A DNA stretch of 64,000 bases from NCBI RefSeq assembly GCF_900156475.1, contig NZ_FTNR01000015.1:1-64000 (forward strand), given 5' to 3'. Numbering within the stretch: position 1 is the first letter of the stretch; each line of letters begins with the position of its first letter. Position numbers and translations under genes: made by a program. Under the pieces are notes generated by a model that had not been told where the DNA came from, did no database searches, and was given only the letters and a program-made list of their open reading frames with translations. The stretch is from Natronorubrum thiooxidans (GTDB lineage Archaea > Halobacteriota > Halobacteria > Halobacteriales > Natrialbaceae). Shown one piece after another: positions 5,380-61,371 of the stretch.

Positions 5380-7332
5380 TCACATTTGGTACCAGAGAAG
5401 ATTCCAGTACCAGAGCAGCGATGTGAACACCATTGCAGCGAGCGAGACCACCGTGTAGTGAACCCGCGTCCAGCGCCCCCATTCTCGGTTCCATATGGCA
5501 ATGCCTGCGAATATCACCGTTAAAACGCTCGCTACTGCCCCGACGAGTGAGGGTATAGTAAGGAAGCGAAATAGTAACCGGTCTCCATACAGAAACGCAG
5601 TTGGTCGCATCGCCACCCCTCCCGCGAAACCGATTACAAACAGGAGGAAACAGACAGCAGCTATGCCTCCTGTCCACCGTGCAAATCGGAGTGGGGAGTC
5701 TTCCCGAGATCGTTCCGTACCACGATACCAGCACCTGATGGCTGCCCCAGACCATCCAAAGATGGCCGTCACGAAGACTACTACAGAGAAAGCAACGATC
5801 GCACCGTGAACCCGTGGTTGTTCTACTATCGAAAGTCGTTCGTACGCCGACGCTGGACGACTCCCGAGAAACAGGTGTGTGATATCTCCATCGGTTTCAC
5901 GAAATGCGAGTTGGTCGGGACCGTCGGTTTCGTGGAAGAAGAGCGGCTCCACTTCGATCCATCGCTTCGTTTCGTCGCCGTGTGTCGTTATCAGCTGTTC
6001 TCGATCGTCGAGAGAAACGGAGACAGTCTCGGTAACGCCGATGAATTTCTCTGAGGTCGTAGACGGGACTCTGAGTGTTCTGTACGTCCCTTCGAGGTCG
6101 GTCCCTCGTGTTAGTGTGCTATCTGAAACCGCTACTGACGGCTCTTCCGTGGGGAAGTATTGCTCAACGAATTCGTCGATGAACTCCTTTCTGGCATCAA
6201 TCCCTCCGGGGCCATTGTATGAGACGAACACCCCTACGTCGTGTTCGGGAACAAGAAAGAGGAGGCTGTGAAATAATTGTGTGTCACCGGCGTGACCAAT
6301 CACCCGGACACCGTGACGACTCATCTCGTAGAAACCGAAGCACATTCCGTTCACTCGTTCGTCGTTGGCGAATCGACGGCGGTGCATCTCCGCGATCGTT
6401 TCCGATTCGAGTATCCGGTCATCATCAATAGTTCCGCCCTGAAGATGTGCCCGGACGAATCGTGCCATGTCGGTCGCGGTCGCACTCATTGCACCTGTGG
6501 GCGGCATACCAACGAACTCGAAGTCATCTTCTCGGAACCCGTTCGCTGTGGCTGTGTATCCCTTTGCAAGATCTGCCTGGAGACGGTCTGGAACCGGCTG
6601 GGCGAACGTGCTCCGATCCATCGAGAGCGGATCAAAAATTTCCTCAGTAACGTAGTTCTCGAACGACATCCCAGCGGTGGTTGCCGCGATGTGACCGGAG
6701 AGGCCAGCGCCGTAGTTCGAATACGCAGTAAACTGTCCCGGCGGACGGACGCGAGTAGGTTGCTCTTCGACAAGGGACTGCTCCAGTGGTTGGAGGTCGG
6801 TTTCTTCCAAGACGAACGTCCCGTGAGCCCGATCCTCGAACCCGGGTGCATGCGTCCCGAGATGGTCGAGTGTGATCGGTTGCTCGTCCGTCCCAGGAAC
6901 ATCGATTTCATTGAGATACTGGTTTACGTCAGTGTAGAGATCGAGCCGCCCACGTTCGACACCCTGCATCACGGCTGTCCAGGTGATCAGTTTCGACACC
7001 GAACCGATACGAAAGAGCGTCTCATCGGCACGAACTGGTGTTTCCGAACTAATGTCACTAACACCGTATCCCTTTGCGAACTCCGAATTGCCATCGACGA
7101 CAGCGACTGTCGCCCCTGGAATTTCGTGAGCTTCCAGTTGCGCACGTACGAGACCATCGAGAAACGACTCGAAAGCGTTCGGATCGGCGAGCGGCCCTGT
7201 ATCAGGCTGGGCGACGGCCCTACTCGCAGTATCCGTGCTAGCATTTACGGGTGTCGAGAAGGCAGCAGCACTGACCGCGAGTCCACCCAGAACGTCCCGG
7301 CGCGAAACGGAGTCCATTGGACTGTAGCTCAC
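5380..7332 (-). CDS. Tat-exported beta-lactamase-fold serine hydrolase with C-terminal membrane helices
   Basis: This 650-residue protein starts with a twin-arginine signal (SRRDVLGGLAVSAAAF). Its beta-lactamase/penicillin-binding-type domain spans about residues 45-380. The catalytic SxxK is in GSVSKLITW, the YxN is in AYSNYGAG and the HxG motif is in IGHAGDTQ. A beta-rich segment follows, then about four membrane helices (VHGAIVAFSVVVFV, WTGGIAAVCFLLFVIG, LVGAVASVLTVIFAG, VVSLAAMVFTSLLWY). It should act outside the cell, anchored by the C-terminus; the substrate (peptide, ester or amide) is unknown. The GTG at 7332 overlaps the DUF998 stop; an ATG at 7317 would keep the twin arginines and is equally likely. 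Confidence 0.88.
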   Translation of the reverse strand: MSYSPMDSVSRRDVLGGLAVSAAAFSTPVNASTDTASRAVAQPDTGPLADPNAFESFLDGLVRAQLEAHEIPGATVAVVDGNSEFAKGYGVSDISSETPVRADETLFRIGSVSKLITWTAVMQGVERGRLDLYTDVNQYLNEIDVPGTDEQPITLDHLGTHAPGFEDRAHGTFVLEETDLQPLEQSLVEEQPTRVRPPGQFTAYSNYGAGLSGHIAATTAGMSFENYVTEEIFDPLSMDRSTFAQPVPDRLQADLAKGYTATANGFREDDFEFVGMPPTGAMSATATDMARFVRAHLQGGTIDDDRILESETIAEMHRRRFANDERVNGMCFGFYEMSRHGVRVIGHAGDTQLFHSLLFLVPEHDVGVFVSYNGPGGIDARKEFIDEFVEQYFPTEEPSVAVSDSTLTRGTDLEGTYRTLRVPSTTSEKFIGVTETVSVSLDDREQLITTHGDETKRWIEVEPLFFHETDGPDQLAFRETDGDITHLFLGSRPASAYERLSIVEQPRVHGAIVAFSVVVFVTAIFGWSGAAIRCWYRGTERSREDSPLRFARWTGGIAAVCFLLFVIGFAGGVAMRPTAFLYGDRLLFRFLTIPSLVGAVASVLTVIFAGIAIWNREWGRWTRVHYTVVSLAAMVFTSLLWYWNLLWYQM

Positions 7333-35226: not shown

Positions 35227-36420
35227 GTGAACTCGTCGAATCCCCTGACGACCACAACTTCAGGATCTCAAATTCTACAAACCACCATACAGCTGACACC
35301 CGTTACGACCGTCCACGAAGCCACCGAGAGCTACCTTCGGTACAAGATCAACGCCGACGGCTCAAAGACGACCATGCGCTCACCACTGTGTGAGTTCGCC
35401 GATCACTGTCGAGACGAACGTGACATCGAGTTCGTCGATGACCTCACACCCCACGATGTCCGAAGTTACAGCGAACACCTCTACGACCGCGTGGTGATCG
35501 ACGAGGATCTGGCGGCCTCGAGCGCCCACAATTACTTCGCCTACGTCCGGGCGTTCCTGTCGTGGTGTGTCCGAGACCAACACCTCGAGTCGAACCCGGC
35601 GAATACGAACACCGCGATGGACCCGCTACCGGAAGACGACGGGAAACGCAAGCGCCAGTACTGGAGTGCCGAGGACCGAACGGCGCTACTCGAGTACGTG
35701 ACCAAGCGCGTCGACATGGCCCTGGAGGGAACGATTCGAACCGACGCCGAGACGGCCTTCCGTGACCGGGCGATTGTCGTGATGCTCGACGGGACGGGGG
35801 CGCGAGGTGCCGAGTTGTTCGCCGACTCGAAAGACGACAAACGCAACGGCCTTCGCTGGAGCGACGTTGACTTCGACGAGCGGTTGATCGAAGTCTACGG
35901 CAAATCGCGTGAGTACGAACAGGCTCCGTTTCCTGCCAGTGTCCACGACGTCCTCGAGCGATGGTATCGAGTCCAAGAGCCGCTGACTGAGGCGTGGCCT
36001 GTCTTCCCGACCGGTCACTACGGGTCGAAAAAGTGTACACTCGAGGCCGAACTTGGTGAGGACTGGGTATCGTCGGCGCTCAAGGATAGGGGCGACGTCG
36101 GTAAGACCGAGGTTCTCGACCGTCTGCATCGCGATCATGAGGTGCCACCGCCGTCGATCTCGAAAGAGGGCGTTCGTCAGTTGATGAAACGGTTCACCGA
36201 CGAGGCTGGGATCGATCCGGATGGGGAGTACGACTATCTGACGCTGCACGGTGCTCGTCGAGCCCTCGGTCGGGATCTGTATACTAGCGGGATGTCGGAA
36301 AAGGCTCAGGAGGCGTTACGACACAACTCGATTGAGACCACCCACGAGGCCTACGCCGACGTGAAAATGAGGGACGTCTCGGATAGCATTGATAATGTCC
36401 GTAATCATAGTAGCCACTGA
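35227..36420 (+). CDS. tyrosine recombinase / phage-type integrase (copy 2)
   Basis: 397 residues. From TTVHEA onward it is almost identical to copy 1 (390-1532), with the same catalytic Arg (TGARGAEL), H-x-x-R (LHGARRALG), His (ALRHNSIETT) and Tyr (EAYADVKM). The first ~27 residues and all upstream DNA differ, so the GTG start at 35227 is less certain than the shared body. Both copies point the same way, 34.8 kb apart, and both encode full-length catalytic domains. The differences are mostly conservative, indicating two functional paralogues rather than an assembly duplicate. Confidence 0.92.
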   Translation: MNSSNPLTTTTSGSQILQTTIQLTPVTTVHEATESYLRYKINADGSKTTMRSPLCEFADHCRDERDIEFVDDLTPHDVRSYSEHLYDRVVIDEDLAASSAHNYFAYVRAFLSWCVRDQHLESNPANTNTAMDPLPEDDGKRKRQYWSAEDRTALLEYVTKRVDMALEGTIRTDAETAFRDRAIVVMLDGTGARGAELFADSKDDKRNGLRWSDVDFDERLIEVYGKSREYEQAPFPASVHDVLERWYRVQEPLTEAWPVFPTGHYGSKKCTLEAELGEDWVSSALKDRGDVGKTEVLDRLHRDHEVPPPSISKEGVRQLMKRFTDEAGIDPDGEYDYLTLHGARRALGRDLYTSGMSEKAQEALRHNSIETTHEAYADVKMRDVSDSIDNVRNHSSH

Positions 36421-39784: not shown

Positions 39785-40879
39785 ATGGACCCCGATCGCA
39801 TCCTCGAGCGGGACGAGGAGATCGATCAGTATGCGGCCGCGCTCCGTCCGGTTGTCGAAGGATCGATGCCGGACAACATTATGGTCTACGGCAATACCGC
39901 GGTGACGCGGTATATGATCGATATGATGCATGAGGCGTGTGAAAACAGCGGAAATGTACTCTCGACGGTCTTCTTAAACTGCAACGAGATGACCGCGTTC
40001 AAGGTCGTCCGGACGCTTGTCAACGAGTTTCGCGACAAGAATAAAGATGAGTTCCCCGCACGCGGGCTCTCGACGCGGGACGCTCTCGACGCGCTGTACG
40101 AGGAGATCGACAATCGGGAGGGGACGTGTATCTTGGTCCTCGACGAGATTGACCATATCGAAAACATTGACTCACTGCTCTACGACCTGAGTCGGAGCCA
40201 CTCGACAGGGAATCTCGAGCACGCAACGGTCGGGATCATCGGAATCTCAAACGACTATACGTTTCGCGATATTCTTTCGTCGAAGACGAGAGGGACGTTC
40301 GCCGAGGAAGAACTTGACTTCACGCCGTACACTGCCAACGAACTGGAAGCGATCCTTCGCGATCGGGCTGAGATTGCGTTCAACGACGGTGCGATCACGG
40401 AGGCGGCGATCAATCTGTGTGCAGCGATCGCAGCCCAAGACAGCGGTAACGCTCGTCAAGGCCTTGACATCCTCCATGCTGCGGGGAAAGAGGCTGATAA
40501 AAAGAACGACGAGCAGGTGACTGAAGTGCACATCCGAACGGGTAAGCGCAATGTCGAACGCGGGAATATTGAGCGACGAATAAATAGCCTCACCGTTCAG
40601 CAACAACACATTCTCTATACCCTCGCGCTGCTGGAAGCTGACGGCCAGACACCGGCCAGAACAAAGGAAATCTACTCTCTATATACTTCGGTCTGCGAGC
40701 AATCTGGGCTTGCTCCGCTCTCGACGACGCGAAGCGTACGGGAACACCTTGACAAGCTCTCGATGCAAGGGTTCGCCGATCAGATTCTTCGAAACAAAGG
40801 GCGGGACGGCGGGAAGTACCATGTCTACGAGTGTTCGATGCGAGCCGATATCGTCCTTGAGATCGATCTCCGGGAGTGA
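39785..40879 (+). CDS. Orc1/Cdc6-like AAA+ protein lacking the P-loop core
   Basis: 364 residues, shorter than the usual ~400. The AAA+ part begins RILERDEEIDQYAAALRP; Walker B is intact (CILVLDEIDHIE), sensor 1 is VGIIGISNDY, and the C-terminal winged helix (TVQQQHILYTLALLE, then STTRSVREHLDKLSMQG) is complete. At the Walker A site it reads MVYGNTAVTRYM where relatives have YGKTGVGKTAVT, so about five residues including the Lys are missing in frame. The N-terminus is also short. It probably still binds origin-like DNA but cannot hydrolyse ATP normally. A TAACTAAAGAC box ends three bases before the ATG. Confidence 0.85.
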   Translation: MDPDRILERDEEIDQYAAALRPVVEGSMPDNIMVYGNTAVTRYMIDMMHEACENSGNVLSTVFLNCNEMTAFKVVRTLVNEFRDKNKDEFPARGLSTRDALDALYEEIDNREGTCILVLDEIDHIENIDSLLYDLSRSHSTGNLEHATVGIIGISNDYTFRDILSSKTRGTFAEEELDFTPYTANELEAILRDRAEIAFNDGAITEAAINLCAAIAAQDSGNARQGLDILHAAGKEADKKNDEQVTEVHIRTGKRNVERGNIERRINSLTVQQQHILYTLALLEADGQTPARTKEIYSLYTSVCEQSGLAPLSTTRSVREHLDKLSMQGFADQILRNKGRDGGKYHVYECSMRADIVLEIDLRE

Positions 40880-50370: not shown

Positions 50371-51206
50371 CAAATAAACAGAAAACAATACACAGACGCA
50401 CAGCTCTTGGAAGTATCCTTGCCGGGATCACCACCGGGCTTGCTGGCTGCACCAGTTCGGGCAATGGTAGTGACGACAGGTCAACTGACGCTGCTGGAGA
50501 TGTCATCCAGAGCGTCGATGTTGATGGACTCGAACTGGTGATCGAACTCAAGCGAGATGAGATTGATCAGCTGAACGTAATCGCCCCCTCTGGTGATCTG
50601 TTCTCACAGCAAACGATTGAATCGGGGGTGTCCCAGGTATCGATCGACGTTGGGACAGACTACTCTCCCGGAGAGTACGAAATTATTGGCCTCGCGGATG
50701 AGGAGTCAGTCGAGGCAGTACGAGTTTCGCTCGAACCGGACCTCGAGCTAACAGAGCTTCGACTGGGTCGAGACCATCCCGAGGAGATGTACGATGGAGC
50801 GAGTGACTCTCAGATCGATGCCGAAGCGATCCTTTCTGTGACGAACCAAGGAACCGGCCCGACTGCAGTTACCGCTCTTCGATTCGAAGGCGATGTCCCG
50901 TTTCCGACCCACGAAAGCTACGATGAGAACGATGAGAGTGGTATCTATGACCCAGAGAACGATTTCGGAGCGGACGCTGACTCGATAACAATCCCTGCTG
51001 GTGAAACAGTTCTGGTCTACAGTAATTCACGGCCCTTCTCACCAGCTGGTACACGCTCGAAGTGTAATTCAGTCGGTCGTAATGGGCAGTTCACTGTCCA
51101 CCTTTTTGCAATCCACGATGCAGCGGACATCACTCTCGAGTACCTGATACACTACCTCAGTTCAGATTCGGAGGACTGCGTAATCGAAATTGAGGAGACT
51201 GCATGA
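50367..51206 (+). CDS. Tat-dependent lipoprotein of the conjugation operon
   Basis: 279 residues from ATG 50367. The head HRRTALGSILAGITTGLAGC has twin arginines and a lipobox ending in Cys, so it is exported folded and lipid-anchored outside. The mature part is beta-rich (VTNQGTGPTAVTALRFEG, ITIPAGETVLVYSNSRPFSP), like CARDB or lamin-tail-type adhesive domains. It overlaps its neighbours by four bases at both ends. It probably supports the surface protein or the pore. Confidence 0.75.
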   Translation: MTNKQKTIHRRTALGSILAGITTGLAGCTSSGNGSDDRSTDAAGDVIQSVDVDGLELVIELKRDEIDQLNVIAPSGDLFSQQTIESGVSQVSIDVGTDYSPGEYEIIGLADEESVEAVRVSLEPDLELTELRLGRDHPEEMYDGASDSQIDAEAILSVTNQGTGPTAVTALRFEGDVPFPTHESYDENDESGIYDPENDFGADADSITIPAGETVLVYSNSRPFSPAGTRSKCNSVGRNGQFTVHLFAIHDAADITLEYLIHYLSSDSEDCVIEIEETA

Positions 51207-52351
51207 AACTGGCATGGTCTCTCTCAGATATCGGGATTAAATGGTTCGAAGACGCGATTGACAAACTTATCGAATGGTTCCAAGAGGGACTGACAGATGG
51301 CTACAATGCGGTCACAGCCCAAGTTTTTGGGACGCCAACACCGGAAACTGACGGCGGATTCGTCTTCGGTGTTCCATCGAACACTCCCTGGGCAGAGATC
51401 CATAGTAGCCTCGTTGCTGGTGAGATGATGCTTGTCGCATTATTATTACTCGTAATGTGTGTCCAAGGGCGACACACCATTCGAATCTTCAATATCGGTA
51501 GTGCGTACGAGACTCGAAAGACGAAGCGAAGTGCTTGGACGGGCGCGTTTCTGATCGTAACTTGGTATTGGATCGCTGTTCTAGCTCTGTATTTGATTGA
51601 TGGCTTCACAATTGCACTTATTCCAGACGTTTCGGTAGTCACGGACACGATGATTGATCTGCTTTCGTTGACGGTTTCTAACCCAGCTCTTGCGCTCTTT
51701 CTTACGGGGGTTGGTGCTGTCGCGATGTGGATCCTTCAGGCCCTCTTCTTCCTCCGGGAAATCATGTTGTACATCCTCATTTACGCGATGCCGATCGGCA
51801 TCGCTCTGGCCTACGGAAACCTTCCTGTTGTCTCCCATATTGCCAGAACGGTCTGCATGAAGTTTGCACCACTTGCGATCATGCCGCTCCCAGTAGCACT
51901 GCTGTTCAAAGGCTACGAGCTGCTCTTCAGTGAGGGAACTGATTCAGCGCTCATTCCAGATAGTTCGTTCCTGAGCTACCTTATCGCGGTCACACTGCCA
52001 CTTCTCTCGATCCTCATCGTCTGGAAGCTGTTCAAGTATGCCAGCCCGATGACGACGAAGATCATCGGGGCAACAACCAAGGGTGCAGTAACCGCTGGCG
52101 CAGCCGTCGGGGCCGGTGCTGTTGCAGGCCCTGCTGCAGCAGCCACAACTGCGGCATGGGGACCGAAAGCAGCTGTTGGGTATACGGCTGCGTCGAAGAT
52201 GCGCCAAGGCAGTGGCTCATCCCAACAGTCTGGAAACTCGAGCGGCGGCAGCGGAGGACGAACCGACCACGACAACGTTGCGACAGACGCGTACGGCCAG
52301 GAGGGTGTCCCGGCGTACCGTCGCACCGAGAACGATCCGGGGTACTACTGA
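51203..52351 (+). CDS. VirB6/TrbL-like polytopic membrane protein
   Basis: 382 residues with six or so helices, for example LVAGEMMLVALLLLVMCV, GAFLIVTWYWIAVLALYL, LTGVGAVAMWILQALFFL, LYILIYAMPIGIALAY and YLIAVTLPLLSILIVWKL. A Gly/Ala-rich stretch (AAVGAGAVAGPAAAATTAAW) and a disordered Ser/Gly tail follow. The soluble N-terminal helix bundle, central helices and low-complexity tail are the VirB6/TrbL plan. It would form the inner part of the DNA channel. Confidence 0.65.
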   Translation: MKLAWSLSDIGIKWFEDAIDKLIEWFQEGLTDGYNAVTAQVFGTPTPETDGGFVFGVPSNTPWAEIHSSLVAGEMMLVALLLLVMCVQGRHTIRIFNIGSAYETRKTKRSAWTGAFLIVTWYWIAVLALYLIDGFTIALIPDVSVVTDTMIDLLSLTVSNPALALFLTGVGAVAMWILQALFFLREIMLYILIYAMPIGIALAYGNLPVVSHIARTVCMKFAPLAIMPLPVALLFKGYELLFSEGTDSALIPDSSFLSYLIAVTLPLLSILIVWKLFKYASPMTTKIIGATTKGAVTAGAAVGAGAVAGPAAAATTAAWGPKAAVGYTAASKMRQGSGSSQQSGNSSGGSGGRTDHDNVATDAYGQEGVPAYRRTENDPGYY

Positions 52352-53452
52352 ATGACGCAAGATCACGATGCAGCTGGCCGTCGAATCATGGATGAATTGG
52401 GCGAAGAGAGTCGAATTCCGATTCTGAATATCGAAGAAGGTGACGTGTATGTCCTTCTTGGATTCCCGATCGGTGGCCTCCTTTTTGGTGGCCTCACGGG
52501 CCTCGATGGTGCGATTCTGCCGTTTGTCTTACTCGGTGTTGTCCTCGGTGGGTCAATCGTCTACGCATCACCAAATCACCTTCCGGCGTCAACGTGGCTG
52601 GCTGATGTCTATCGCTACTACTGCAAACGACCACGGTTCACGTACAGCACAGAAGCCACGGCGGAATCAGACGAACCGAGCACGGACGGCGGACTCGTGA
52701 GCTATACGCCATTCAAACCGGACGAGCGAACACAGGATCTCACGAACATCAGGCGAGCGTGGCCTGGTGCCGGTGCAATCGAGCGCTCCGATGGCGCGAT
52801 GGAGGCCTACCTCGAGATCGATCCTGGGAACATGGATTTCGCGATGTCCGGCGACTGGGCTCAGATCCAGCAACTCGGCGAAGAGTTCGCGAACAAGGAA
52901 CTCGACTTCACACTCAAATTCCACGCAACAACTCGCTCGTTCCCGGTCGAGAAACTGATCGACAGGATCGACGGTCGACTCACCGATAGTGACGTCAAGC
53001 AGAATCCAATCTTCAAAGAACTACTCGAGGAGTATCGCGAGCAACGTCCGCGAGACCTCGAGGGGACCCAGCAGGTACGCTATTTCATCGGTGTCGAAGT
53101 CGACCCGTTCGAGGTCTATGATCGGTATCAGGACGAACAATCGCCTGCAGAGAAGCTCACCTCGTTTCCGGTGATTGGCTTCCTGTTCAACCCGTTCGTG
53201 ACCCGTCGCAACGACATGACCGACGCGGAGATCCGGGCGGCCATGTTCGAGAAACTCGAGAACCGCTGCCGTAGCCTCCAGACGGAGTTCATTCAGAAGG
53301 CATCAGGGTGGTCTGCCCACCGGTTGACGACGGTCGAACTCTTTGTCCTCTCGATGGACTTCTGGAACGGCGAGGAACACGAGTACGATGACGGCGCGGA
53401 TGCAATTCGTGATCATCCAGCGGTTGACCACCAACGGAGGGTCGATCAATGA
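52352..53452 (+). CDS. VirB3/VirB4-like N-terminal component
   Basis: 366 residues, starting directly after the previous stop (TGAATG). Two membrane helices near the start (VYVLLGFPIGGLLFGGL, ILPFVLLGVVLGGSIVYA) resemble VirB3/PrgI. The soluble rest (MEAYLEIDPGNMDFAMSGDW, TLKFHATTRSFPVEKLIDRI, MFEKLENRCRSLQTEFIQK) resembles the N-terminal half of VirB4 proteins but has no Walker motifs. With the downstream gene it looks like a VirB4 split into two polypeptides. It overlaps that gene by four bases. Confidence 0.6.
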   Translation: MTQDHDAAGRRIMDELGEESRIPILNIEEGDVYVLLGFPIGGLLFGGLTGLDGAILPFVLLGVVLGGSIVYASPNHLPASTWLADVYRYYCKRPRFTYSTEATAESDEPSTDGGLVSYTPFKPDERTQDLTNIRRAWPGAGAIERSDGAMEAYLEIDPGNMDFAMSGDWAQIQQLGEEFANKELDFTLKFHATTRSFPVEKLIDRIDGRLTDSDVKQNPIFKELLEEYREQRPRDLEGTQQVRYFIGVEVDPFEVYDRYQDEQSPAEKLTSFPVIGFLFNPFVTRRNDMTDAEIRAAMFEKLENRCRSLQTEFIQKASGWSAHRLTTVELFVLSMDFWNGEEHEYDDGADAIRDHPAVDHQRRVDQ

Positions 53453-55623
53453 TCGATATGCTCCCGCTTTCGATTGTTGAGCAGGTCCAGGGGTCGCTTC
53501 CTGACCCAGAAACTCAGGCCGGACTCGCCGTCTACATTGGGGTGACAGCATTGGTCACGCTACTTGTGAAGATCGCATGGGACTACTGGCGAGCCGAAGA
53601 CGTCGAAGAAGTCGAGTTGATCGATCTTCTCGAGGAGACAACCGTCGAAGACGGTCTCGAGGAAGGTCAGGTCCTCGACGACATCGCTGAACAGCATCAA
53701 CAGGCGATCGCGCCGGCAGCGATCGAGTGGGATACGCGTACCGCTCGCGTTGGTGAGCAGTGGACGTCGACGCTCTACATTGCGGATTATCCGGATTATC
53801 CAAAAGACGGCTTTCTGACCGAACTCTTCGAACTCACCGATGTCGAGTTCGACCTCACTGTTCACGTCACGCCGAAGAGCCAGCAGCAAGCTCGAGACGA
53901 GCTTCAGCGGGTTGCCGACGATCTTCAGGCTGACGCCGACCTCGAGAGCACTGTTCGTGGGAGCTATCTTCAGGAACGAGCGAACGAAGCACTGTCGACG
54001 TACAAGAGCGTCGAGAACGGAAGCCGTGTCTTCGATCAGGGCATGTTGATTACGGTGCGAGCGGATACTCGCGACCAGTTGCGTGACGATGTCCGGACGA
54101 TCCGCAGTCGACTGCGTGAACAGCCTGCTGGCCTCTCGCCAAAAACAGCGATCTGTAAGCAGGACCTCGCAATTCAGGCCGCTGCACCAGTCGGACCCAA
54201 TCCGTTCGACCGAGAGGCCACAGCACTCGGCGGTGCGGTCGGTGCGTTGCTCGCCTCACCACACAACGCCACAATCCTCGAGGACGGCGGCGTCGAGTTC
54301 GGCGTTCACTGGAAGAACCAGAGTCCGGTCGTCATCGACCCATTCGCTCGAGAGAATGGCTATGCGATGTTCACGATCGGCGACCCAGGTTCTGGGAAAT
54401 CGTTCGGCTCGAAGCAGAACTTCATCCGTTCGATCGAGCAAAGCGAGGATCGAATTGGGATCATCCTCGAGCCATTGAACAACTGGGCAGGCGTGGCCGA
54501 AGCTCTCGGTGGTGAGCGAATCACGATCGGTGGGGAGATGGGTCTGAACCCGCTCGAGATCAAGCCCACCCCCGAACGGGTGCAACGGGCGATGGGCAAG
54601 GACGCCAGCCCGTATCGCGAAAAGCTCGACAGCGTGATGAGCTTCCTCTCGAACTACTTCGCACTCCGGGGAATCACACTCGGTGACCGCCGAACGACGT
54701 TGGAGACTGCGATCGAGCGTGCATATTCACGCAACGGAATCACCGACGATATCGCGACTCATCATAACGAGAGCCCGACGATGCGGGACGTCCTCGATAT
54801 CCTCGAGGAGATGGTCGAAACACCGACGGAGTACGTCGTGCGGACGGACGAGGAAGCGACGAAGATTGGCGAAGACGCGACGTGGCTCATCGATCAGCTT
54901 CGCCCGTTCGCAGAAGACGGCCGGTACGAAAACCTGGGTCGAGAGACAGAGTTCGACATCCGCGACGAGAAGGTAATCTATCTCGACCTCGCCCAGCAGG
55001 AAGGAAGTCTCGGTGGGAGCACGAGTCTCGTCATGCAGTTGCTGATCTCGCTGGTCTATGAGCGTGCGAAAGAGACGGACAAAGAGGTCGTCTTCGTCAT
55101 CGACGAGGCTCGTTACATCATGCAGGACGCGGCGAGTCTCGAGTACCTCGAGATCGTCTTCCGTCACCACCGACATCACAACCTCTCGATCCGACTTGTG
55201 ACCCAGACTGTCGACGAGTTCTTCCAGCATCCAGAGTCCGAGGCGATCATCGACCAGTGTGCGATCAAGCAGTTCCACCATCTCGATGGAATGGACCGCG
55301 AGTGGGCAAACGAGTTCGGTCTCAATTCGGCACAGATGCGCTTCGTCCAAGAAGCCGTGCCTGGCAACGACCGGACGGGCTATTCGGAGGCGCTCGTCGG
55401 CGTCGACGGCGAGTGGCGGGGAATCGAAGTCCGCGCGATGGAAGACGAAACGGCAGTGATCGACTTTGATCCGAAGGTCCAGTCTCAGACTGAGCTGCCA
55501 GGTCGTTCAGCAGACACACCTACAGAGCAATCTATGAATATTGATCCAGCAACCTCACACCAAGTATCAACTTCACCACAGACCGATGGCGGTAAGCACG
55601 GAGGTGAATCGGACCATGAGTAA
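53449..55623 (+). CDS. VirB4/TraC-type transfer ATPase
   Basis: 724 residues. One N-terminal membrane helix (AVYIGVTALVTLLVKIAWDY) precedes the VirB4 N-domain. Walker A is at ~311 (GDPGSGKSFGSKQNF) and Walker B at ~547 (VVFVIDEARYIM), with RHHRHHNLSIRLVTQTVDEF and EAIIDQCAIKQFHHL after it, typical of VirB4. It energises substrate passage through the channel, located on the cytosolic face. Its 3' end overlaps the coupling-protein gene by eight bases. Confidence 0.88.
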   Translation: MIDMLPLSIVEQVQGSLPDPETQAGLAVYIGVTALVTLLVKIAWDYWRAEDVEEVELIDLLEETTVEDGLEEGQVLDDIAEQHQQAIAPAAIEWDTRTARVGEQWTSTLYIADYPDYPKDGFLTELFELTDVEFDLTVHVTPKSQQQARDELQRVADDLQADADLESTVRGSYLQERANEALSTYKSVENGSRVFDQGMLITVRADTRDQLRDDVRTIRSRLREQPAGLSPKTAICKQDLAIQAAAPVGPNPFDREATALGGAVGALLASPHNATILEDGGVEFGVHWKNQSPVVIDPFARENGYAMFTIGDPGSGKSFGSKQNFIRSIEQSEDRIGIILEPLNNWAGVAEALGGERITIGGEMGLNPLEIKPTPERVQRAMGKDASPYREKLDSVMSFLSNYFALRGITLGDRRTTLETAIERAYSRNGITDDIATHHNESPTMRDVLDILEEMVETPTEYVVRTDEEATKIGEDATWLIDQLRPFAEDGRYENLGRETEFDIRDEKVIYLDLAQQEGSLGGSTSLVMQLLISLVYERAKETDKEVVFVIDEARYIMQDAASLEYLEIVFRHHRHHNLSIRLVTQTVDEFFQHPESEAIIDQCAIKQFHHLDGMDREWANEFGLNSAQMRFVQEAVPGNDRTGYSEALVGVDGEWRGIEVRAMEDETAVIDFDPKVQSQTELPGRSADTPTEQSMNIDPATSHQVSTSPQTDGGKHGGESDHE

Positions 55624-58600
55624 TACCGAGTATCTGAAGATCACGCCGTCGTCCGAACCCATTCACCGAACGGACGTTCCAGCTACGTTGGAGAGCCTTC
55701 ATAAACTCTCGAACCCAGCGTCAACGAGCTTTTGGAACCGGGCGGATCCACGGGTAGACACTGCACCACCGACGTTCGAGTTCCTCGTCGTCTCTACGGG
55801 ACCCGACGAGCCAGTCGAATTCTACTATGGGGTTGACCAAGAGGCACACGTCAAGACACTCGAGAAACGCCTCACGTCGATCTTTCCGCACAGTTTCACC
55901 ATCACGAAGACAGAACTCGATCTCGAGGAAGCGCTTGTACCCGAGAGAGACACCCCACAAGAGGAGCACTCCGACCTCGAGTTAGACGAACACCACCCTT
56001 CGAGCGAGGATGAACCCATCGACGACTCAAAGGGAGACGATGAGTATGTCGAGCCTTCTCCGCTCGGGGTCGAGTGGGTGGGCAAAACCGGCCGCAAAGA
56101 AGACTGGATGACGACGATCACGCCGTTCGTGATCGAGGAACTGGACGAAGAATACGATGCAGAGCGCCCGCCGTTATCGGCGATCGTTGATGCATTGCAC
56201 GAGATGACGGTGCCGATCGCGTATCAAGTCGTCTGGCAACGCAAGCCGGACTGGCGAGACGACGCCGAAATCCGTAAATCGAATCTTCGCAACGGGCGAG
56301 ACACGTGGTCAGAAGAACTCATCGGTTCGTGGATCGAACCCGTCGACGCCGATCCCGAAGAGCGTGAACTGTCTCAGGAGTCCCAAAACCGGATTCGCCG
56401 AATCGAGAGCAAACATCCCCGGAGGACGTTCACTGTGAATGTGCGGGCAGTCGCGATGGGAGATCCAGACGATACCGATCTTCACGCAGAACTCGAGCAA
56501 CTAAAGTCGTCGTTAGATCCACTCGAGGGACCGTTCTACGAACTTGTCGGCCGTCGAATTCGTGAGAAGGGTATCCTGTCGAGGCGGAAAGCGAAGCGAG
56601 CACAACGGCACCTCGAGCGAGTGTTCAATGCGGAAATCGTCACTGGTGGCAGGAAAACCCGGCCGGATCTCGTGTTTAACGCCGACGAACTCGCGAACCT
56701 GGTAGTCGTTCCCGGCGGGGAGGACTTGACCGTCGACGGATCACGTGGTGTGCGTTCAGAGCAGCGGTCGCGAAACCCGCTGCCACGGCCAAACCCCGAC
56801 CTGATGGAGCAGTTCCGTGAGGGGATGGCGATCGGGTACGCACTCGACGAAAACGGGACTCCAGAGGACGAACCGACGCGGATCCCACCACAGTTGCTGC
56901 CGACCCACTACCTTCGAGCAGCAACTACCGGCGCTGGAAAGTCGAAAGCGCTCATCAACGACATGCTCTCACTCTATGAGAGTACTGATGGGCCGATTAT
57001 CCTCGTCGACCCGAAAGGCGACGGAATGACCGAAAACTACCTTCGAGCACATGCTCGACGCTTTGGTGTCGACGATCTCGAGGAGAACGTCCTCCACTTT
57101 TCGGTTCCGGATATCCTCCCTGGATTTTCGTTTTTCAACCTCACGCCTGGACTCTCACACGGACAACGGCGTGTCGATGCTGTTCAACGGAAAGCCGATC
57201 ACTACGAGGAGATCCTGAAGCTCGTGATGGGGCGAGACCGATACGAACGGGCAACGGCTTCCCCACTGTTGATCGAGGCACTCATCAAGACACTATTCGA
57301 CGAGGAACACGGTCGAGAGAACGGGCGCCATCGTGCATCTTCGGACTACTTCGCTCATCAGCAACTCGAGCACGCACTCGATCAGCTCTGGCAGGCTGGA
57401 CCACCGAATCCAAACGAGGAGGCAATCCCGAACTCGAGCGACCCGGAAGTTACCCGAACGGTACGCCGCCAGCTCCAATCTGACGGGCGGACGTTTGCGA
57501 ACGTGATGGGCGGAGTTAGTAATCGATTCGCCTACATCTCACAGGATTCTCACCTCCGACGAATCTTCAACAACACCGATCCGCAGTTCGACTTCAGGGA
57601 ACTCCTTGACGAGAATCAGATTGTACTGTTCGATCTTGGTGATCTCCGTGATGATGCTGCACGAATGCTGACCGGCGTTATTCTCACATCACTCGAGGAT
57701 GCACTCCGGACGCACGAGGACGATCTCGGCCAACGATCCGACGACTACGTTGTGAACCTGCTTATCGACGAGGCAGCGTCAGTCGTCGTTTCTGATGTCC
57801 TCAACGATTTACTCGAGAAAGGACGCAGCTTCCGTCTGTCGGTGGGCCTCTCGATGCAGTTTCCAGAGCAGATGCAAGCAGAGGGTGGCCGACGTGTGTA
57901 TCTGAACGCGCTCAACAACATCGGAAGTCCGATCCTTGGCAAAGTGAACGTCGACCGTGAGCTGGCACGGGCGATGGCTCACGAGGATCTCGATCCAACG
58001 GCCTTCGCGAACCGGGTTCGGTCACTCCCTCGAGGTGAGTGGATTGCCCAACTCCCGAGCCCTGTGTTTGGAGAGACGGGTCCGTATCCGTTCAGTATCA
58101 AACCACTCCCGATCCCGCCAGGTCATCCAGAGAGTGACGATCCGCTCTCTGAGTACGAAGAGCAGCAGTTCCAGCGAGCGTTTGCTCAAGTTCACGACCG
58201 GACCCGACGGGAGTTTGGTGTTCACGAGTCGGCTGCACCGACCGCGGAGGCTCCGGAACCACTCCAGGACGTTCTTGGGGCGGACAGTTCGGACCTCGAT
58301 CACGCTCTTGCCCACATTATTCGGAACCTCCAACTCCGAGAGGACTCCCGCGAGGACAATGGCTGGATAGACGCAAAAACCGTCGATGTAGAGCTACGAA
58401 CGGCATTTGAGGAGGAACACGCAAATGCTGATCTCCCCTCTTTCGAGGACCTCGCTGATGTCCGTCAGCGGTCTCGTCTCATCGAGGTGGGGTTGAGTCA
58501 GGCATCTCGTGACGTCGCCGTTCGGCTTACAGACGCTGGTGAATCGGTCGTAGCACTCGACACCGGTGAGAGCAGGGCAGCAGGTAGTATCCGCCATGAC

Positions 58601-59713
58601 GAGGCGATCACACGGATCGACGCTGCACTGACGAAGATCGGCTGTACCGTCTCGGTTCCAAAACAGGACGGGAGCGAACAACCTGATGCGAGAGCGGTTC
58701 ATCCTGACTGTGACCGCCCCTTCGCGATTGAAGTGGAAACGACAACCCCTGATAACCCTGCTCAGGTACTGGCAAACCTTCGAAAAGCTCAGGATGCCGA
58801 TGAACTCCCGATTTTCGTTGTCGAGGAGGCAAAGCCGGAGACCTACTGGGCAGAGCGGGTCGATGGGATTCTCTCATCCCCTGTCCGAGAGCTTTCGACC
58901 GGAGAGACACGACTGTACACCAAAGATCGGGCACTCTCGTTCAACGGTGGCGCAACGACAGACGGTGGCGTAACGGCAGTCCGACCAGCCACCGAAAACA
59001 GCAAGCAGACCGTCTGGAAACGCCAAGACGGACGAATCGTCCTCGAGAATGGCCAGGGCGACAGTCTCGTAGAGACGACGTCGGTAGCAGAACTCTCGAG
59101 AGACCATGTTCCGGCCGTGTACAGCTACGATCAAGCTTCTGGAGAGTACATCGTTTCCGAACAGGGGCTGCAGTATGTCTACGATTCGAAAGAGGCGTTT
59201 TCCGAGAAGTGGACTCGACTCATGGAACCGTTTGTTCCCGAAGCCGACCTTTCCTATCCCGACTATGGTCCTGGTGACTATTCGATCGTCGTTCTTCGGA
59301 CCGATGGTCAACCGGTCGTCTACACAGATGGAGAGACTGCCGCACTTGAGACGCTGCTCGAACATGAAGACGTGTGTTCAGCGATCAAGAGCAGTGATGA
59401 AGAGGAGTCCTCGTTCGAGCCTAGCGAGTTGCTCCTAGCAGAGATTGCTGATGATGCAGATGCAGTTGTTGGACGATTCGCGAGCCTGTACCTCACTGAG
59501 GAGTCGACCAGTACGGTCGCTGCCAGCACAGTTTATGATTGTTATGAACAGTGGGCCAAACAGCATGACATTGATCCAGATGGCAAGAGCTGGTTCGCTC
59601 GTCGGTTAGGCAACCACATCGAACTCAACCGAATAACGGAGCGACGTGACGGTGAGCTTGTCCGGTGTTACGAGGGTCTGAGACTGGATCACCAAGGGAC
59701 ACTCGAGGAATAG
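55616..59713 (+). CDS. VirD4/TraD-like coupling ATPase with nuclease-like C-terminus
   Basis: 1365 residues from ATG 55616; a longer start at 55541 is inside the VirB4 gene. Walker A is at ~434 (AATTGAGKSKALIND), followed by ILVDPKGDG, and Walker B is at ~714 (NLLIDEAASVVVSDVL), with the RSFRLSVGLSMQFPEQM segment of T4SS coupling proteins. It lacks clear N-terminal membrane helices. The C-terminal third has KIGCTVSVPKQDGSEQPD and PFAIEVETTTPDNPAQVL, a PD...ExE pattern of PD-(D/E)xK-fold proteins, possibly lacking the catalytic Lys. Expected role: bring DNA to the channel. The tail is unusual for the family. Confidence 0.85.
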   Translation: MSNTEYLKITPSSEPIHRTDVPATLESLHKLSNPASTSFWNRADPRVDTAPPTFEFLVVSTGPDEPVEFYYGVDQEAHVKTLEKRLTSIFPHSFTITKTELDLEEALVPERDTPQEEHSDLELDEHHPSSEDEPIDDSKGDDEYVEPSPLGVEWVGKTGRKEDWMTTITPFVIEELDEEYDAERPPLSAIVDALHEMTVPIAYQVVWQRKPDWRDDAEIRKSNLRNGRDTWSEELIGSWIEPVDADPEERELSQESQNRIRRIESKHPRRTFTVNVRAVAMGDPDDTDLHAELEQLKSSLDPLEGPFYELVGRRIREKGILSRRKAKRAQRHLERVFNAEIVTGGRKTRPDLVFNADELANLVVVPGGEDLTVDGSRGVRSEQRSRNPLPRPNPDLMEQFREGMAIGYALDENGTPEDEPTRIPPQLLPTHYLRAATTGAGKSKALINDMLSLYESTDGPIILVDPKGDGMTENYLRAHARRFGVDDLEENVLHFSVPDILPGFSFFNLTPGLSHGQRRVDAVQRKADHYEEILKLVMGRDRYERATASPLLIEALIKTLFDEEHGRENGRHRASSDYFAHQQLEHALDQLWQAGPPNPNEEAIPNSSDPEVTRTVRRQLQSDGRTFANVMGGVSNRFAYISQDSHLRRIFNNTDPQFDFRELLDENQIVLFDLGDLRDDAARMLTGVILTSLEDALRTHEDDLGQRSDDYVVNLLIDEAASVVVSDVLNDLLEKGRSFRLSVGLSMQFPEQMQAEGGRRVYLNALNNIGSPILGKVNVDRELARAMAHEDLDPTAFANRVRSLPRGEWIAQLPSPVFGETGPYPFSIKPLPIPPGHPESDDPLSEYEEQQFQRAFAQVHDRTRREFGVHESAAPTAEAPEPLQDVLGADSSDLDHALAHIIRNLQLREDSREDNGWIDAKTVDVELRTAFEEEHANADLPSFEDLADVRQRSRLIEVGLSQASRDVAVRLTDAGESVVALDTGESRAAGSIRHDEAITRIDAALTKIGCTVSVPKQDGSEQPDARAVHPDCDRPFAIEVETTTPDNPAQVLANLRKAQDADELPIFVVEEAKPETYWAERVDGILSSPVRELSTGETRLYTKDRALSFNGGATTDGGVTAVRPATENSKQTVWKRQDGRIVLENGQGDSLVETTSVAELSRDHVPAVYSYDQASGEYIVSEQGLQYVYDSKEAFSEKWTRLMEPFVPEADLSYPDYGPGDYSIVVLRTDGQPVVYTDGETAALETLLEHEDVCSAIKSSDEEESSFEPSELLLAEIADDADAVVGRFASLYLTEESTSTVAASTVYDCYEQWAKQHDIDPDGKSWFARRLGNHIELNRITERRDGELVRCYEGLRLDHQGTLEE

Positions 59714-60132
59714 CATGAGATCTGCTGAAACCCGTCGAAAAGCCGTTGTACAGCATTCCCCGGGAGAATTACGGCATAGACCGTGGAACCCGAACGGAAT
59801 ATCGGAAAAACGCCAGACGGAACGGTGTTACGGCATATTTGAGTTTGCTGTAACACTGCTCTTTCGACGAGGCGATGCCGTACGTTCTGTAGAGGCGTTA
59901 CAGCGCAGGAATTCTCCCGATTCCGGGGTCCTGTTACGGCAAAAACCAAGTGAGAAAGAACGGGGGGTACCCATTGGAACTGCTGTTGATCGACTGGAAG
60001 GGGAAGAAACTGCGCCGAATGGTGGTGCGACCTCGAGTGCGTCTTCTGTGAGGCAGCCACTTGGTGTGCGGTTTGTTGGACTGGAGAACAGTGGCAGCCA
60101 GAGCACTGGAATAGAGTGTGGCTGTTGAATCT
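59714..60132. other. repeat-rich gap between coupling ATPase and primase-like gene
   Basis: About 420 bases. A frame of 137 codons is open from 59715, but it is basic and low in coding character, and an array of short repeats runs through it, so non-coding is preferred. The array (59743-59943) is listed separately. The last ~190 bases hold nothing else recognisable apart from the primase leader. Confidence 0.5.
59743..59943. repeat. iteron-like array of GTTACRGCA repeats
   Basis: Seven copies related to GTTAC[GA]GCA occur in 200 bases: near 59745, 59769, 59826, 59897 and 59933 on the forward strand, and near 59846 and 59876 on the reverse strand. Clearest are TGTTACGGCA at 59826-59835, CTGTTACGGCA at 59931-59941 and GCGTTACAGCG at 59895-59905. 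Spacing is 20-55 bases. Short repeated units in both orientations beside a primase-like gene are what plasmid origins or operators look like. Archaeal ORB sequences are not recognisable here. Confidence 0.6.
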
Positions 60133-61371
60133 ATGATTGACAAGTCAATTTTACCGACGGAGATGTGCGTTCGCGAGCAGTGGATCTGTTGGCGAGAAGA
60201 GAACCGAAACGGTGATCTGACGAAGATTCCAGTCAACCCGAAGACAGGCGACTTCGCATCGTCGACAGACGATCGTACCTGGGCCACCCTCGAGATTGCT
60301 CTCGAGTATGTGTCTTCGGCTCGAGCAGATGGAATCGGGTTCGTCTTTACGAGTACAGATCCGATCGTTGGGATCGACCTCGATAAGTGCCGAGATCCAG
60401 AGACAGGAAGGCCGGATCCGGAAGCAAAGGAGATCGTCCAACAACTCGAGTCCTACACAGAAGTCTCGCCATCTGGAACGGGCTATCACGTCCTCATTCA
60501 TGGCGACCTCCCCGACGGGCGAAACCGGCGTGGCGGTGTCGAGATGTACGATCAGTCTCGCTTCTTCACTGTGACCGCAGACCACGTCGACGGGACGCCG
60601 ACATCGATCAATGAACGCCAGGACGCCCTCGAGGCAGTTCACGAGGAGTTCGTCGCTGAGGACGATACCAACGACAAGATCGACGCCACTGGCGGCCGAC
60701 GTGGTGACTCGGGTCAGAGCCAGACGCTTGATCTCGAGGACGAGGTACTACTTGACAAAGCTCGCTCGGCGGGTAACGGGGAAAAATTCGACCGGCTGTG
60801 GCGGGGGAACACCAGTGGATACGACAGTCAGTCAGAAGCCGATATGGCACTGTGCTGTCTGCTGGCGTTCTGGACCGGTGGAAACCGGCTGCAGATGGAT
60901 CGTCTGTTTCGACAGTCAGGGCTTATCCGAGGGAAATGGGACGACGTTCACCACGCCGATGGATCAACATACGGAGAGAAGACCCTCGAGCGCGCGATTG
61001 CTGCGACAGATGACTTCTACGAGCCGACAACGTCTACTGTGGAGACGTCAGTGGATACTGCTGCTAATACTGACTCCGATACTGCATCTCCTCTTGAGGC
61101 TGGCATCGCGGAACCGAGCTCTGAAGGGGGTGATCGAGTGTACCTCGAGGAAAAGAACGACCTTCTCGAGACCCGTATCGACGAGTTGGAGCAGACTATT
61201 GCTGACCAACGTGACCAGATCGAACAGCTCACAGCAGAGCGCCAGCAGTTGCGATCGATCGTTGACCAGCAGGAGAGCGACCTCGAGGATACCACTGAGC
61301 CACCCTCCGAGAAAGATGGGGATTCGTCATCACTCCGAACTCGGATGAAGCGGTTGTGGCGGCGAAGCTGA
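60133..61371 (+). CDS. primase-polymerase-like replication protein with coiled-coil tail
   Basis: 412 residues from ATG 60133; a GTG at 60118 would add five. The N-terminus, LPTEMCVREQWICWREE, then TKIPVNPKTGDFA, VGIDLDKCRDPETGRP, EVSPSGTGYHVLIHG and VEMYDQSRFFTVTADHV, matches the AEP-like primase-polymerase domain of phage/plasmid proteins (D-x-D in GIDLDKC). A middle region resembles the primase-associated helical domain (DMALCCLLAFWTGGN, LIRGKWDDVHHADGSTYG). The end is a coiled coil (EEKNDLLETRIDELEQTI). It would start replication on the element, directly behind the iteron-like array. Confidence 0.8.
   Translation: MIDKSILPTEMCVREQWICWREENRNGDLTKIPVNPKTGDFASSTDDRTWATLEIALEYVSSARADGIGFVFTSTDPIVGIDLDKCRDPETGRPDPEAKEIVQQLESYTEVSPSGTGYHVLIHGDLPDGRNRRGGVEMYDQSRFFTVTADHVDGTPTSINERQDALEAVHEEFVAEDDTNDKIDATGGRRGDSGQSQTLDLEDEVLLDKARSAGNGEKFDRLWRGNTSGYDSQSEADMALCCLLAFWTGGNRLQMDRLFRQSGLIRGKWDDVHHADGSTYGEKTLERAIAATDDFYEPTTSTVETSVDTAANTDSDTASPLEAGIAEPSSEGGDRVYLEEKNDLLETRIDELEQTIADQRDQIEQLTAERQQLRSIVDQQESDLEDTTEPPSEKDGDSSSLRTRMKRLWRRS

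Follow-up and report, generated by a model that had tools for sequence, protein, structure and literature searches.

What is the function of the short repeats that crowd into the gap between a conjugation-type ATPase gene and a primase-polymerase gene on this haloarchaeal DNA? The stretch analysed here (the window, 64,000 nucleotides) lies within a contig of 110,765 bp, from a genome that its named relatives place in the Natrialbaceae. Clustered short repeats are what iteron plasmid replication origins have, and a preliminary description of the locus had proposed a candidate replication origin with the adjacent primase-type gene. The array also lies directly downstream of a virB6-virB4-virD4-like run of genes, and its surroundings are as follows.

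39785..40879 (+): Orc1/Cdc6-like protein with Walker A deleted, by motif inspection
51203..52351 (+): TrbL/VirB6-like conjugation protein (PF19590, 3e-230)
53449..55623 (+): VirB4-type conjugation ATPase (TraG P-loop, 6e-8; conju_CD1110, 1.7e-41)
55541..59713 (+): TraG/VirD4-like HerA ATPase, 1390 aa (DUF87/HerA, E 7e-5; TraG-D_C; SXT_TraD and CedB weak)
58589..58876 (+): nuclease-like (PD-(D/E)XK-type) domain inside the ATPase, with invariant PD ... E-V-E
59420..59686 (+): C-terminal winged-helix domain of the ATPase, of D5/P4-primase and RFX type, the proposed repeat reader
59714..60132 (+): non-coding gap (419 bp) that separates the genes for the TraG/HerA-type ATPase and PrimPol
60133..61371 (+): NrS-1-type primase-polymerase (PrimPol; helix-bundle domain PF22763, E 5e-30)

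The helix-bundle match bears out that the adjacent gene is of primase type. AEP-like DLD, GYH and MYD motifs were seen by eye in the PrimPol sequence, and the protein has the NrS-1-type make-up of an AEP domain plus a helix-bundle domain; no helicase domain was detected in it. A second PrimPol copy in the same genome (L041, G000:C50:172-1406) no longer reads through, owing to a frame change and one stop, and the gap upstream of it has lost the repeats. At a contig end (L010, G046:C3), about 10 copies of a longer repeat like AACGATTGAACGGGTGGTGTGT are present directly 5' of a truncated primase relative. About 35 kb of the window lie between two tyrosine integrase genes that closely resemble each other (390-1532 and 35227-36420, both on the + strand); this stretch includes duplicated TrkA/TrkH-like potassium-uptake genes and may be a block of cargo or a nested element.

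The fused ATPase carries two further domains. Its C-terminal winged helix gave a Pox_D5 match in all 15 of 15 ATPase homologues (best E 9e-7) and matched the C-termini of phage primases (E 7e-10), and the best solved fold was the RFX DNA-binding domain (TM 0.86). The internal domain was modelled with an alpha-beta-beta-beta-alpha-beta order; its nearest folds were Hjc, VRR_NUC, DdmD and BsaWI, none significant singly, and when the domain was modelled separately the best fold matches were again PD-(D/E)XK proteins, none of them significant. The usual lysine is missing (E-x-E), and we call the predicted domain nuclease-like only.

The 419-bp gap contains the repeat GTTACRGCA in three exact copies, two with one mismatch and two weaker ones, together with two blocks that are invariant among related loci. 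These are, in order of position:

59745..59755 (+): degenerate repeat GTTGTACAGCA (TGTACAGCA at 59747-59755, two mismatches), read from the sequence and retained in the orphan copies described below
59768..59776 (+): repeat ATTACGGCA, one mismatch, by motif search
59806..59820 (+): invariant block 1, AAAAACGCCAGACGG (family consensus AAAATCGCAAGACGG), by comparison with related gaps
59827..59835 (+): exact repeat GTTACGGCA, by motif search
59846..59854 (-): exact repeat GTTACAGCA, inverted relative to 59827-59835, by motif search
59876..59884 (-): degenerate repeat CGTACGGCA, two mismatches, read from the sequence
59897..59905 (+): repeat GTTACAGCG, one mismatch, by motif search
59933..59941 (+): exact repeat GTTACGGCA, directly 5' of the core, by motif search
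59942..59977 (+): invariant block 2 (core), AAAACCAAGTGAGAAAGAACGGGGGGTACCCATTGG (family form AAAACCRACTAGTATAGA with the inverted repeat CCRAC...GTYGG)

The seven degenerate copies in both orientations that had been described earlier were thus recovered as five clear and two degenerate ones, and an additional match with one mismatch was present at 59723 (-), just beyond the 59743-59943 range of that description. With the rest of the window as background, the 233 bp from 59713 hold six matches with at most one mismatch as compared to 0.08 expected (Poisson 3.5e-10; about 1e-7 when corrected for window number). A search of the same gap blind to the word gave a weaker signal, the observed score being reached by 4 of 300 gap shuffles. 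Genome-wide (4.2 Mb), GTTACRGCA occurs 55 times and its reversed control 58 times, so it is the clustering alone that is special. The region is indeed non-coding, as had been stated: the only long forward ORF in the gap (59715-60128) had no Pfam match, and the orthologous gap of a close relative (L102) is 414 bp long, a difference which breaks the frame. The idea of a structured RNA was dropped for want of any Rfam match near the array.

The array of repeats is genuine, and it is widely conserved. Its copies keep their distances from the primase in close relatives (-306, -287, -236 and -200), and between L102 and the window repeats and cores differ at 12 of 116 sites as compared to 38 of 119 in the spacers (p = 5e-5), under a motif-versus-spacer mask that was fixed from the window and has a few sites off by one or two bases. 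A word-blind search of about 40 related loci showed that almost all gaps between ATPase and primase contain a 9-mer more than once, and 31 of 38 gaps scored within the top 5% of their own shuffles. The preliminary description had made conservation of the repeats beside homologous primase genes one test of its proposal, and they are conserved there. The word itself varies by lineage (GTTACRGCA, CTTACGGCA, GTCCAGGCA, GTCAGGGCA, GTTCAGGGCA and GTCCACGCA, assigned by eye for less regular loci); a separate set of named genomes yielded the additional word GTTCCACCCA in Halogranum amylolyticum and Natrialba sp. SSL1, and further occurrences of GTTACGSCA.

Two blocks are constant across the words, namely AAAATCGCAAGACGG before a repeat and AAAACCRACTAGTATA after the last repeat. 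The first shows 0-3 mismatches to its consensus in most related gaps, as compared to typically 5-7 in shuffles. The core 15-mer AAACCRACTAGTATA was found in 75 listed places in 391 genomes, against one for the reversed-pattern control, and most of these places are 135-170 bp upstream of an NrS-1-type primase. The 33 core matches in viral contigs were judged to be at chance level, given the size of that collection. An inverted repeat CCRAC...GTYGG lies 3' of AAACCRACTAGTATA, with the outer arms paired in 97.8% of cells; in 9 of 27 sequences the arms show an A-T/G-C exchange, perhaps a single event. A variant core, AAAACCAAGTGAGAAAG, occurs in the word class of the window, and the class with the word GTCCACGCA is devoid of the second arm.

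It was pertinent to ascertain which of the two neighbouring proteins the repeat word follows. Nearest-neighbour assignment of the word class was correct in 33 of 37 loci with the ATPase winged helix and in 22 of 37 with the primase, and linkage could add to the former correlation since array and winged helix are adjacent. Several elements carry near-identical primases and different words; in L100, for example, the primase is 88% identical to that of the window, the winged helix 32%, and the word is different. Judged by their sequences, natural recombinants of this kind are L100, L103 and L105 as against L104, L155 as against L154, and L046 as against L049. The third helix of the winged helix reads RRL with TTAC words and RKL with other words, with few exceptions. 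In chromosomal relatives the primase follows virB4 directly, and neither this ATPase nor an array is present there; an ATPase paralogue with a different C-terminus is located elsewhere. The array therefore belongs with the ATPase, and the primase is disfavoured as its partner. The earlier proposal that joined array and primase is supported in part: the conserved array stands, and the partnership looks mistaken. As the primase is exchangeable across classes, any site that it reads must be independent of class, which points to the invariant core. The complement of the core reads YGGTTTT, and its resemblance to TTTGGTTA, at which the NrS-1 phage primase-polymerase starts synthesis sequence-specifically (PMC8718748), is a partial match and a lead.

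In the ATPase paralogues (L204, L205, L207 and L211-L215), a conserved non-coding block, TTCATAATCGG...CCGCAAG...GAACTAGG, lies 80-220 bp past the stop codon and may be another transfer or attachment site; no tRNA was found at it.

The gap 59714..60132 is a unit that recurs elsewhere. Cassettes of about 380 bp, comprising array and leader without tra genes, are present as orphans on other replicons. One of them (L150) is 93% identical to window positions 59732-60119 and has unrelated flanks, another (L149) adjoins a tyrosine integrase gene, and one contig (L140) carries two word classes. On a further contig (L142, G058:C66), cassettes of different word classes at 6154 (+) and 6784 (-) face each other about 600 bp apart. 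The related contigs L140 (at 14786) and L141 (reverse complement, at 5954) share their downstream sequence and differ in the cassette before it, which looks like a replacement of one cassette by the other. The second GTTACRGCA cluster of the same genome, which precedes a cdc48-type gene on contig 30, is such an orphan and is shared with Natronorubrum bangense; between the two, motif positions differ at 8 of 116 and spacers at 22 of 111 (p = 0.0055), under the same mask, with its few shifted sites, as for L102. A general upstream element of cdc48 was rejected, since of 125 family genomes only 13 gave a match, and most matches adjoin conjugation genes. About half of the orphans examined share their genome with a conjugative element of matching class, which would make mobilisation in trans possible. 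Small mobilisable plasmids with an orphan were not found, the smallest matching record being about 90 kb.

We propose, with moderate confidence, that the conjugation system encoded by the element recognises the array in cis and starts there, as at an oriT or clt. The C-terminal winged helix of the ATPase would bind the 9-bp repeats and thereby load the translocase on its own element, nicking or processing of the DNA in or close to the invariant core may fall to the nuclease-like domain, and the adjacent PrimPol would then prime the core for strand synthesis; we infer all of these steps, and transfer as well. A transfer site is favoured by the word following the winged helix and not the primase, by the relatives that lack ATPase and array together, by the place of the ATPase within the virB6-virB4-virD4-like run and by a winged helix of the type found at the C-termini of P4/D5 phage primases. 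It is also favoured by the orphans without tra genes on other replicons, as known for pWBG749-type oriTs (PMC4652767), and by the orphan common to two species, with its motifs conserved more than its spacers. As in an oriT or clt, the site is non-coding, adjoins transfer genes and has an invariant core (AAAACCRACTAGTATA plus the AAAATCGCAAGACGG block) that could serve as a start site. Against this reading, adjacency of word and winged helix means that linkage alone could yield their correlation, relatives of this winged-helix type act in replication and not in transfer, and the nuclease-like domain has neither the usual lysine nor a singly significant fold match. Some orphans could also be remnants, a same-class conjugative element accompanying only about half of them. 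More tentatively still, the locus might be a first archaeal transfer origin, in which the fused ATPase would be recognition factor, nicking enzyme and coupling protein in one, the invariant core would serve PrimPol for priming, and orphans would let other replicons be carried along.

An alternative close to the idea of the preliminary description is a vegetative origin, at which the P4-alpha-like winged helix of the ATPase would bind the repeats, the HerA motor or a host helicase would open the DNA and PrimPol would prime at the core. PrimPol is placed directly downstream of the array, the winged helix belongs to the D5/P4-primase group, a domain of this type being what P4 alpha uses to bind its origin repeats (PMC4234260), and the YGGTTTT complement recalls the NrS-1 start. 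The Orc1-like protein of the window retains Walker B and lacks the GKTGVGKT Walker A motif, which supports the earlier view that it is ATPase-dead, and no other Orc1 was found in the 110-kb contig. However, all six related plasmids examined carry Orc1/Cdc6 with Walker motifs intact in at least one copy, and the suggestion of an Orc1-independent origin type fails for the family. The primase is kept in relatives without the array, the motor is a conjugation-type ATPase and no known replicative helicase, and the NrS-1 site is matched only in part. GC skew on seven contigs showed no consistent switch at the array, its extrema falling there only irregularly. In an iteron origin the adjacent replication gene sets the specificity, and here the primase is common to several word classes; nor is the arrangement that of a haloarchaeal Orc1/Cdc6 origin, the Orc1-like gene being about 19 kb from the array and devoid of Walker A. 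A vegetative origin appears rather unlikely, yet the array may have an initiator-like role in replication as a second function.

An improbable explanation is that the repeats are operator sites by which a traG-primPol operon regulates itself, with the core as promoter. The gap does lie between two same-strand genes, in most loci 135-167 bp separate the core from the primase match downstream and TAGTATA could be TATA-like, but that stretch is GTGAGAAA in the word class of the window. The intact cassette recurs before unrelated genes, and the arms of the inverted repeat, which a promoter would not need, are conserved with compensatory change. We regard as very improbable a centromere-like partition site or a recombination (att) site. 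Orphans do change place, L140 and L141 differing in the cassette before a common downstream sequence, and one orphan adjoins the integrase gene; yet the window's contig yielded no ParA homologue of the query type, inspection by eye revealed no short target duplication in common, and it is the ATPase winged helix that the words follow.

Conjugative plasmids of archaea have no recognisable relaxase (PMC9905601). With a 390-bp cassette, a DNA-binding domain that matches it, naturally swapped words and orphans, the way in which archaea start conjugative transfer becomes testable in genetically tractable haloarchaea. A transfer site would explain the primase-polymerase at the end of conjugation gene clusters, and the array offers a sequence signature for finding mobilisable replicons. 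In the open-access literature we found no description of such an arrangement, nor of an archaeal docking site for an element's own DNA-transfer motor.

Several known systems can be compared with this locus. At the origin of P4, repeats are read by the winged helix of the alpha protein, and at RSF1010 oriV repeats and a hairpin are used by a primase (PMC4234260). The present array likewise has repeats with a winged-helix protein or primase nearby; in contrast, neither an SF3 nor a RepA-type helicase was seen at this locus, the winged helix forms part of a conjugation ATPase, and Orc1/Cdc6 is present in the plasmid family as well. With NrS-1 the locus shares a PrimPol with helix-bundle domain and the YGGTTTT of the core complement, whereas no helicase domain was detected in the haloarchaeal PrimPol. 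As regards nicking, MOBC relaxases are related to restriction endonucleases (PMC6499999). Streptomyces TraB is a conjugation motor of the HerA/FtsK superfamily, the C-terminal DNA-binding domain of which reads 8-bp TRS repeats in the non-coding clt (PMC4170104, PMC5365140), much as the array of 9-bp repeats here lies beside a conjugation motor that ends in a winged helix. TraB functions without a type IV secretion apparatus, whereas VirB4 and VirB6 homologues are present here, along with a nuclease-like domain, PrimPol, a D5/RFX-type winged helix and an invariant core with inverted repeat that distinguish this locus from TraB/clt. The oriTs of the S. aureus pWBG749 family combine a variable recognition repeat with an invariant core and an adjacent specificity protein; the partner enzyme is near-identical between subfamilies, and orphan oriTs occur elsewhere, sometimes two or three kinds per plasmid (PMC4652767). 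These traits have counterparts here (variable word and constant core, near-identical partner enzyme, orphans), with the ATPase as the candidate for the adjacent matching protein. In pWBG749 the specificity factor is the separate SmpO and the nickase is the Mob relaxase; here both roles would fall to the motor protein. We do not claim membership in either group, and TraB/clt and the pWBG749 oriT subfamilies appear to be the closest parallels in logic.
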